This document shows positions 3,867 to 54,159 of a stretch of 64,000 nucleotides of DNA, one piece after another; position 1 is the first letter of the stretch, and every line of letters begins with the position of its first letter. The notes under the pieces were generated by a model. That model did no database searches. It was not told the DNA's origin and saw only the letters and a list, made by a program, of their open reading frames with translations. This DNA comes from Sulfurovum sp. NBC37-1. GTDB lineage: Bacteria; Campylobacterota; Campylobacteria; Campylobacterales; Sulfurovaceae. The translations under genes and the position numbers were made by a program. The stretch covers positions 1,674,001 through 1,738,000 of the forward strand of contig NC_009663.1 in NCBI RefSeq assembly GCF_000010345.1, written 5' to 3'.

Positions 3867-3893
3867 GGACACCTATTATTAGAGGTGCCCTAA
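3867..3893 (+). repeat. Solo terminus of the roughly 270-bp inverted-repeat element, in the yebC leader
   Basis: GGACACCTATTATTAGAGGT followed by GCCC closely matches the right end of the element copy at 53892-54159. CACCT and AGGTG pair across ATTATTAG, so it can fold as a hairpin in the yebC 5' leader, upstream of its AAGGA ribosome-binding site. No internal part of the element is present. Confidence 0.55.
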
Positions 3894-15891: not shown

Positions 15892-15916
15892 GGGCACCTC
15901 TAATAACCCTAAATAG
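15892..15916 (+). repeat. Solo terminus of the roughly 270-bp element near the ygiQ 3' end
   Basis: GGGCACCTCTAATAACCCTA followed by AATAG is nearly identical to the site at 34101 and to the left end of the element at 23818. No other part of the element is next to it. It lies 14 bp beyond the ygiQ stop codon. Confidence 0.55.
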
Positions 15917-23188: not shown

Positions 23189-23562
<374 letters not shown>

Positions 23563-23614: not shown

Positions 23615-23639
23615 CTATAGTGACTGGATGTCACTATAG
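23615..23639 (+). repeat. Second hairpin of the glnK 3' region
   Basis: CTATAGTGAC, loop TGGAT, GTCACTATAG: a perfect 10-bp stem. It shares the loop and inner stem (GACTGGATGTC) with the hairpins after both glnK genes, while its outer arms differ but still pair. Confidence 0.45.
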
Positions 23640-23817: not shown

Positions 23818-24087
23818 CGGGCAACTCTAATACCCCTAGATACTCATAATGGGTTTTGCAAATGTGAGATTTTGCAAGAGGCTTTCAAGTCCTAGCCAAA
23901 GCTAAGACGAAGTAAGTATCTTGTGAAAGATCGTGTTTGCAAAGCCCACCCTGTGGGCATCACTAGCTTTCGCCTATGCGTCGTTACTCTTTTTCGACTT
24001 AGCTACGCGGCTAGGCCTTCAAAAGAGTGCCTAGCCTAGACAAAAGCTAGAGATGTTATGAGCATCTAGGGGTATTAGAGGTGCCCG
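23818..24087 (+). mobile_element. 270-bp structured inverted-repeat (MITE-like) element, copy A
   Basis: The termini are CGGGCAACTCTAATACCCCT and its near-complement ending GGTGCCCG, extending about 29 bp. Inside lie several nested hairpins: TGGGTTTTGCAAA with TTTGCAAAGCCCA, GTCCTAGC with GCTAAGAC, CTAGCTTT with AAAGCTAG, and ACTCTTTT with AAAAGAGT. No ORF is present. The flanks are TA on both sides, compatible with a 2-bp target duplication. It occupies most of the 575-bp gap between glnK and the second amt gene, 27 bp before its ATG, so it probably lies within or beside the amt promoter. Confidence 0.75.
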
Positions 24088-33455: not shown

Positions 33456-34112
33456 ATGAAATGTATCTATTGCGGCCATCCTTATACCTACCTCCTGAAA
33501 GACAAGCAGCGAAAATGCAGCAAATGCAAAAGAAAGTTCAGTTCCCAAAAAGTTAAACGGGAAGAAACGCTCAACAGACTTTTTGTTGAAGGTGCTACAG
33601 CAAGAGAAGCATCACTTCAAACCGGCATGCACTTCGCTACCGTGCAAAGGTATTATGACATATTCCGAAACAATATCGCTCTGTACTGTGATGAATTGTA
33701 TCAGCACAACAGTGATAAAGTGTCTGCTTATGATGAGTATCTTTATCTTCCAAAAAGTCTAGACCCCCATGAAAACATAGGGAAAGTCCAGCATTTTCTC
33801 ACCCTTGCCTATGAAGGCAGGGTCTATAACCTTATGATGCCTTCCATCTCCAGACTTGGACTCGATCCAAACAAAAGGGACGAGCAGAAACTCCTTGAGA
33901 AATACCTCCGCTATCACACCATATCCAAACTTTCCACCGAACGCTCCACCATACGCAGTTTCTGGGAATATTTTGAGAACTTCATCGTCAAATTCAAGGG
34001 TATCAGTGATGAAAGGTTCATCTTCTACCTCAAAGAGGCAGAGTGGCGCTTTAACAGATTAGAAACATCATCTCATTGTGATATAATAGAAAAAAGATTA
34101 GGGCACCTCTAA
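33456..34112 (+). CDS. IS1595-like zinc-ribbon/HTH protein, probably not an active transposase
   Basis: The 218-residue protein has a zinc ribbon (C3xxC6, C20xxC23) and an HTH (EGATAREASLQTGMHFATVQRYY), then a region ending FKGISDERFIFYLKEAEWRFN. The last motif is the signature C-terminus of ISXO2/IS1595 transposases. Of the DDE residues, only DE in VSAYDEYLYLP is recognisable; the second catalytic Asp and the HxxxN/E region are missing or altered. The stop codon TAA lies within the terminal-repeat sequence at 34101. It may be a domesticated regulator or a dying transposase. Confidence 0.55.
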   Translation: MKCIYCGHPYTYLLKDKQRKCSKCKRKFSSQKVKREETLNRLFVEGATAREASLQTGMHFATVQRYYDIFRNNIALYCDELYQHNSDKVSAYDEYLYLPKSLDPHENIGKVQHFLTLAYEGRVYNLMMPSISRLGLDPNKRDEQKLLEKYLRYHTISKLSTERSTIRSFWEYFENFIVKFKGISDERFIFYLKEAEWRFNRLETSSHCDIIEKRLGHL

Positions 34113-34120
34113 TAACCCTA
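34101..34120 (+). repeat. Solo terminus of the roughly 270-bp element at the end of the transposase-like gene
   Basis: GGGCACCTCTAATAACCCTA supplies the last codons (Gly-His-Leu) and the stop of the IS1595-like gene. It starts 43 bp before the fusion hydrogenase ATG. It is identical over 20 bp to the site at 15892. Confidence 0.6.
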
Positions 34121-52966: not shown

Positions 52967-53888
52967 CGATCATCTCCACAAATCTGTCGCTGTCATTCAT
53001 ACACGAAGCGACGATATAGTCTTCATATTTTATCTTCTCCGCGATCTCTCTGTGTTCTATATCAAGCTCGAACACGGTTTCAGAGTTGTCAAGCGTAAAT
53101 GCCAGCGGGTAGATCAGCACTTTTCTATGTGTCGGATTACGCAATACATCCACCAGATTTGGCTCCAACCATGCCGAAGAACCTACTTTCGACTGATAGA
53201 CCAGTTTGATATCGTGGAAGTCAACCCCTTTACAGGCCAGGTAGGTTTTGATCGCTGAAGCATTCCCTTCCACCTGATTCTGATAGGGGTCTCCCGCCTT
53301 GATAATACTCATAGGCAGCCCATGTGCCGAAAGCAGAAGGTCATATTCTTTGGTCTCTTTGCCTTCTGCCACCTCAAGTATCTTCTCACAGCAGGCTTCG
53401 ATATAGGTGTAGTCATCATAATAGGGATCGATCACCGTGATCTTCGGTGCATACCCCATTGCTTCACAGCGTTCTTCTATATCTTCAATCGAGGAGAGTG
53501 TCGTGGTTGTAGAATACTGGGGATACATTGGAAAGAGTATCAGTTCTTCCACTCCATCTTTCTGACAGGCATAGAGTGCTTTGTCTGCAAAAGGAGGTAC
53601 ATAGCGCATTGCCGGATAGACAGGAAGGTCCAGGCGGGTTTTCAGCTTTGCAATGAGCCTTTCCGTCAGCTCCGGCAGAGGAGACTTTCCGCCAAGCAAA
53701 CGGTAATTCTCTTTGACATCCTCCAGTCGCTTGGAGATAATGATATTGGCAATGAATTTACGCATAACAGGATTCATCGTAAGGATGTTCCTGTCCGCAA
53801 ACATATTACGCAAAAAGAGTTCTACCTCTTCAATAGTATTTGGGCCGCCCATATTGAGAAGCAACAGTGCCTGTTTCATTTTTTCCAT
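52938..53888 (-). CDS. hemH: Ferrochelatase
   Basis: Inserts iron into protoporphyrin IX. It is 316 aa: LLLNMGGPNTIEEVELFLRN, LLSAHGLPMSIIKAGDPYQN (catalytic His), and VYQSKVGSSAWLEPNLVDVL. C-terminal ETVFELDIEHREIA holds the conserved Glu residues. The ATG at 53888 starts only 4 bp from the end of the structured element copy B, so the element supplies the upstream region; ATG at 53879 is an alternative. Confidence 0.95.
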   Translation of the reverse strand: MEKMKQALLLLNMGGPNTIEEVELFLRNMFADRNILTMNPVMRKFIANIIISKRLEDVKENYRLLGGKSPLPELTERLIAKLKTRLDLPVYPAMRYVPPFADKALYACQKDGVEELILFPMYPQYSTTTTLSSIEDIEERCEAMGYAPKITVIDPYYDDYTYIEACCEKILEVAEGKETKEYDLLLSAHGLPMSIIKAGDPYQNQVEGNASAIKTYLACKGVDFHDIKLVYQSKVGSSAWLEPNLVDVLRNPTHRKVLIYPLAFTLDNSETVFELDIEHREIAEKIKYEDYIVASCMNDSDRFVEMIVDKVRTLQK

Positions 53889-53891
53889 TCC

Positions 53892-54159
53892 AAGGCACCC
53901 CTAATAATAGGTGACACTCACAATGGGTTTTACAAATGTGAGATTGTGCAAGAGATTTTTGAGTCCTAGCCATAGCTAAGACAATGAAATATCTTGTGCA
54001 AGATTGCGTTTGTAAAGCCCACTCTTCGGGCATCATCAGCTTTCGCCTATGCGTTGTTACTCTTTTTCGACTTAGCTAAGGCTAGGCCGTCAAAAGAGTG
54101 CCTAGCCTAGACAAAAGCTGAAGATGTTGTGAGTGTCACCTATTATTTAGGGGTGCCTT
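53892..54159 (+). mobile_element. 268-bp structured inverted-repeat (MITE-like) element, copy B
   Basis: It has the same interior as the copy at 23818 (about 75-80% identical by eye) in the same orientation. Termini AAGGCACCCCTAATAATAGG and the matching end are long inverted repeats of about 32 bp (inner part TAGGTGACACTCACAA perfectly paired). The outer arms differ from copy A but are complementary to each other. No clear target duplication. It lies between divergent hemH and kdsB. Confidence 0.75.

Follow-up and report, generated by a model that had tools for sequence, protein, structure and literature searches.

A two-hairpin non-coding element of Sulfurovum with covarying arms and IS5-type ends, probably a MITE

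Two copies of a non-coding element of about 268 bp lie in the window analysed here, a 64,000-nucleotide stretch of Sulfurovum sp. NBC37-1 (contig NC_009663.1, positions 1,674,001 to 1,738,000). Where the paired arms of one copy differ from those of the other, many of the differences occur on both sides of a stem. An earlier note on this DNA proposed either a MITE with gene conversion between its arms or a structured RNA family, and took recurring G.T pairs as a hint of a transcribed plus-strand RNA. The question raised by this locus is what keeps the arms matched. Copies were collected across related genomes and their covariation was tested. Our data suggest that the element is probably a MITE, a non-autonomous transposable element, moved by IS5-family transposases, its arms being matched mainly by arm-to-arm copying plus transposase selection on the ends.

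Two copies with one fold

Copy A has type A ends and occupies positions 23819 to 24086 of the plus strand, where it separates a P-II gene from an ammonium-transporter gene. The ATG of the latter lies 28 bp downstream of the copy. Its parts, all on the plus strand, are a left outer arm (23819..23849), the first ~18 bp of which form an IS5-type terminal inverted repeat, hairpin 1 (23850..23948), hairpin 2 (23958..24055) and a right outer arm (24056..24086). A 25-nt motif, AAGTCCTAGCCAAAGCTAAGACGAA, at the apex of hairpin 1 (23887..23911, plus strand) recurs inverted in hairpin 2. Copy B has type B ends and lies at 53893..54158 on the plus strand, flanked by a ferrochelatase gene and a divergently oriented cytidylyltransferase (CTP_transf_3) gene. 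With limits set by homology, the termini are GGGCAACTC...GAGGTGCCC in copy A and AGGCACCCC...GGGGTGCCT in copy B. The coordinates first given for the two copies, 23818-24087 and 53892-54159, were correct within a base or two, and all the arm sequences quoted with them were found in copies A and B.

Two further features were observed next to these copies. The ferrochelatase frame starts at 53888 on the minus strand and adjoins copy B, so the insertion may have altered the leader of this gene and possibly its ribosome-binding site. At and past the end of the P-II gene lie two palindromes (23535-23557 and 23616-23638) of one pattern, TATAG(A/T)GAC-5-GTC(A/T)CTATA, 81 bp apart (expected matches in the window, 0.02).

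Both copies share a fold of ~268 nt, in which an outer stem of ~31 pairs encloses the two long hairpins. Folding energies were −140.5 kcal/mol for copy A (z = −13.9) and −142.6 kcal/mol for copy B (z = −15.7), each relative to dinucleotide shuffles. The minus strand of copy B folded nearly as well as its plus strand (−132.6 kcal/mol, z = −13.9). The inner paired differences between the copies were genuine (TGGGTTTTGCAAA to TGGGTTTTACAAA, CTAGC to TCAGC, and T-A to G-C). Across the family the T-A/G-C swap is polymorphic (T-A in 48 copies, G-C in 53), and the change of CT to TC with AG to GA on the opposite arm is a double change private to copy B. The outer arms were subfamily-specific and, as had been noted before, each paired with its own partner, with one A.C mismatch in the stretch quoted for copy A.

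The apices of hairpins 1 and 2 are inverted copies of each other (25 of 30 positions identical; 0 of 500 shuffles). All 34 occurrences of the 25-nt motif in the genome fall in the listed copies, where two inverted motifs are usually spaced by about 106 bp.

A dispersed family with the ends of IS5 elements

The genome of the window holds at least 17 near-complete copies, together with fragments, core-less palindromes of 50-55 bp and single ends. Matches were present in 21 of 41 related genomes, its own included, and all but three of these 21 belong to the same genus; the family ranges over Sulfurovum and reaches a few other Campylobacterota. When one genome per species was scanned (about 85,000 species), 71 stretches contained the apical motif, and their titles all named Sulfurovum, Nitratifractor or otherwise unclassified Campylobacterota, Campylobacterales or Epsilonproteobacteria. 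The viral contigs scanned for the element gave no match. The dispersed copies have no coding capacity, as the earlier note said of copies A and B. Against Rfam, the window gave no match at the gathering threshold, and relaxed thresholds gave only chance-level matches over copy A. We found no report of this element family in the open-access literature searched.

Three orphan ends were observed in the window. Two left ends, remnants of type A copies, lie at 34101..34118 (GGGCACCTCTAATAACCCTAAATACTC...) and 15892..15909 on the plus strand, and a right end from a type B copy lies at 3870..3889 on the minus strand. They have neither core nor second end and are probably deletion remnants. In the core-less palindromes at 324326-324380 (L020) and 500025-500074 (L021) of genome G000, the outer arms are directly joined, which is what a deletion of the two hairpins would leave. 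Longer type C copies also occur, with apparent internal insertions (291 bp in G010 C208, L196; 302 bp in G023 C158, L252). Genome G016 shows a recent burst of about 20 near-identical copies with clean target duplications (L037, L055, L088-L103). A search of G016 for an IS5 or DDE_Tnp_1 transposase detected none, so the recent mobiliser may have been lost.

The copies carry terminal inverted repeats of three types: A, GGGCACCTCTAATAACCC; B, GGGAACCTCTAATAATAGG (or GGGCACC...); and C, GAACCCTCTGAATAACC. In sets that still included two reversed-orientation copies, perfect 4-bp target-site duplications (TSDs) flanked 61 of the 107 type A and B copies, compared to about 9 expected by chance (type A, 32/52 vs 3.2; type B, 29/55 vs 5.4). 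No perfect TSDs of any other length were found in these two types. For type C, support was weak (6/23 vs 2.6 expected, counting the first base as target). Copies A and B have no perfect TSD and are therefore probably older insertions.

Autonomous IS5-family elements (NCBIfam NF033581) share these ends. Intact IS elements with GGGCACCTCTAA...TTAGAGGTTCCC ends, which match types A and B, and a single transposase frame were found in two related genomes from two other families of the order (G030 and G031). Their transposases scored 267 and 264 bits against NF033581, with a cut-off of 140, and the G031 element has TTAA on both sides. Broken relatives with type A/B-like ends are present in G011 and, at 2558 kb and 1293 kb, in the window's own genome. 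The latter also contains an intact type C-ended element (703259-704530), whose TSD is TATT and whose 351-aa frame reaches 217 bits against the same family, over the same cut-off.

Because the copies share the ends of IS5 elements, they are best classed as MITEs of IS5-type transposons. The MITE half of the earlier proposal is well supported by the TSDs, the copy number and the matching IS5 elements. We also considered palindromes of the IS200/IS605 or RAYT type, which are inserted by an HUH enzyme without a target-site duplication; the clear 4-bp duplications and the DDE partners argue against this assignment. Between its two ends the element is built of hairpin 1 followed by hairpin 2, which is an inverted relative of the first. 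IS5-family transposases acting in trans most likely recognise the ends and mobilise the element, and each insertion would duplicate 4 bp of an A/T-rich target. A single core rides with ends that match two IS5 lineages, GGGCACCTCTAA in types A and B and GAACCCTCTGAA in type C, and transposase recognition would add selection for likeness of both ends. The copies in G016, where no IS5 transposase was detected, the weak support for type C duplications and the lack of perfect TSDs at copies A and B count against this explanation.

Covariation, wobble pairs and arm-to-arm copying

Covariation is widely read as evidence of functional RNA. We assessed it with a background-corrected G-test whose null was made by reshuffling substitutions over the tree; this is an in-house version of the approach behind R-scape. 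Among 139 distinct copies, a set that still included two reversed-orientation copies, 17 of 112 pairs exceeded this tree-aware null (outer arms, 10/31; hairpin 1, 3/41; hairpin 2, 4/36). The covariation noticed between copies A and B, which two copies alone were insufficient to tie to constraint, is real, and its strongest signal comes from the outer arms, in which entire blocks distinguish the subfamilies. Because arm conversion yields an equal signal, these pairs do not single out a structured RNA.

The covariation could in principle consist only of founder differences among subfamilies descended from a few source elements, with inner pairing left unmaintained. The top outer-arm columns also covary with unpaired neighbours, a mark of block replacement between subfamilies. 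Such an origin is nonetheless scarcely credible for the element as a whole, given that private paired changes fell on 173 terminal branches (core events, about 100 in all) and that the tree-keeping null was exceeded in both hairpins.

A transition in a Watson-Crick pair gives G.T or, at the other base, A.C on the plus strand, and selection on a plus-strand RNA is expected to favour G.T. New mismatches along the tree numbered 149 G.T and 187 A.C, as counted by parsimony on one approximate tree with non-independent events and the two reversed copies left out. By part, G.T and A.C numbered 80 and 36 in hairpin 1, 23 and 72 in hairpin 2, and 46 and 79 in the outer arms. The recurring G.T pairs singled out before were thus borne out only in hairpin 1, whereas A.C was commoner in hairpin 2 and the outer arms. 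Insertion was unbiased in orientation (a gene lay on the right side alone in 32 copies and on the left side alone in 38), and a consensus scan for a plus-strand internal promoter found none. These data do not support one transcribed functional strand. A plus-strand RNA whose fold is selected, with mobility incidental, would account for the very stable fold, for covariation of both hairpins beyond the null and for the conserved G.T pairs of hairpin 1. We rejected it on the wobble counts and regard it as very unlikely, since both strands fold well, Rfam gives no match, and the element lies in either orientation to genes.

Watson-Crick paired changes along the tree numbered 255, and 31 of them fell on neighbouring pairs, compared to 11.3 expected (maximum of 20 in 300 randomisations). 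A further trace was observed in one copy, L009 (G000:2179028), in whose siblings the arms differ at two marker sites. In L009, whose TSD is intact, the right arm shows the left-arm allele at each of these sites, and both arms have left-arm alleles over the whole 31 bp; four further changes from the siblings are common to both arms. Adjacent paired changes, the overwritten arm of L009 and the double change of copy B form the pattern that template switching between arms produces. Published work on template switching describes it as creating and maintaining hairpins (PMC8794818) and as homogenising the arms of inverted repeats (PMC8604942). In the element, the nested palindromes may fold back at replication, and polymerase template switching would copy arm onto arm, so that a change in a single arm shows up in both. 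We infer that this is the main source of the core paired changes; conversion between arms, which the earlier note had raised, is their better-supported cause. Copying that reaches into the flanks was not adopted, as flank pairing in copies without a TSD was not convincingly above shuffles.

Among copies less than 2% apart, there were 16 single and 0 paired differences, and the paired share climbed with distance from 0 to 0.45, in sets that included the two reversed copies. Core paired changes were mostly of the transition type (76 vs 27), which is also reachable via wobble intermediates. Stepwise compensation, which likewise predicts the absence of paired differences at short distance and their rising share, must therefore contribute, or arm copying must be rare per unit time. 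These observations count against the preferred explanation, as does the G.T tolerance of hairpin 1 beside the A.C tolerance of hairpin 2, which simple arm copying does not account for.

Such compensation would be expected if the hairpins themselves were selected, either as folded DNA (cruciforms or single-stranded hairpins) or in transcripts of either strand, for instance for a role in transposition, for binding a protein or because they make insertion into transcribed leaders harmless. The inverted 25-30-nt motif in both hairpins, its near-constant 106-bp spacing and the growth of the paired share with divergence are in its favour. The opposite wobble leanings of the hairpins are in line with their inverted relationship, by which each is G.T-tolerant in its own motif orientation, but by columns this asymmetry is weak (49 vs 31) and we record it as unexplained. 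Of the 32 copies that have a gene on the right side alone, 11 carry an exact TATAAT in the left flank (control, 40/334), but the mirror case gives 5 of 38. We do not claim promoter targeting: TATAAT is enriched relative to distant sequence, but modestly and unevenly relative to upstream-region controls. Stepwise compensation would not be expected to yield paired changes on adjacent pairs or an overwritten arm such as that of L009, and we consider selected hairpins possible, though unlikely. A narrower version, based on this wobble asymmetry, has strand-specific selection acting on opposite strands in the two hairpins, each in its own motif orientation, and would make the element a mobile, orientation-independent leader structure. 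It is quite doubtful; if true, a transcript from either side would first meet a functional 5' hairpin.

Relation to known systems

As an IS5-type MITE the element is ordinary in kind and is useful as a natural test case. It covaries past a phylogenetic test without a one-strand wobble signature and with traces of arm copying, which is a warning for RNA discovery from covariation alone. The family offers a natural data set on which template switching may be told apart from RNA selection, and it ties one non-coding core to the ends of two IS5 lineages.

By definition, MITEs are 70-300 bp long, bear terminal inverted repeats, lack coding capacity and occur in many copies (PMC3733652), and the element resembles the bacterial examples RUP, NEMIS/Correia and Nezha in these respects. 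In Correia elements, too, an inverted repeat accompanies a conserved core (PMC2649163). Unlike those MITEs, the Sulfurovum element has a two-hairpin core, an inverted internal motif, ends that match two IS5 lineages, covariation measured across subfamilies and no Rfam family match. IS5-family elements of the NF033581 group share the terminal sequence of the element and likewise duplicate 4 bp of A/T-rich target; unlike them, the element has no transposase, and the similarity is seen only in the first ~18-20 bp of the ends. REP/REPIN sequences with RAYT are also mobile intergenic palindromes, and short core-less palindromes exist in the present family, but the element differs from them in its clear TSD and DDE transposase partners. 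A parallel for its arms is the template-switch correction of quasipalindromes (PMC8794818, PMC8604942, PMC7202029), with which it shares arm-copied, multi-base paired changes and an overwritten arm. Such correction is known from reporters, genes and RNA hairpins, and the Sulfurovum family suggests that it may also act in a multi-copy mobile element.
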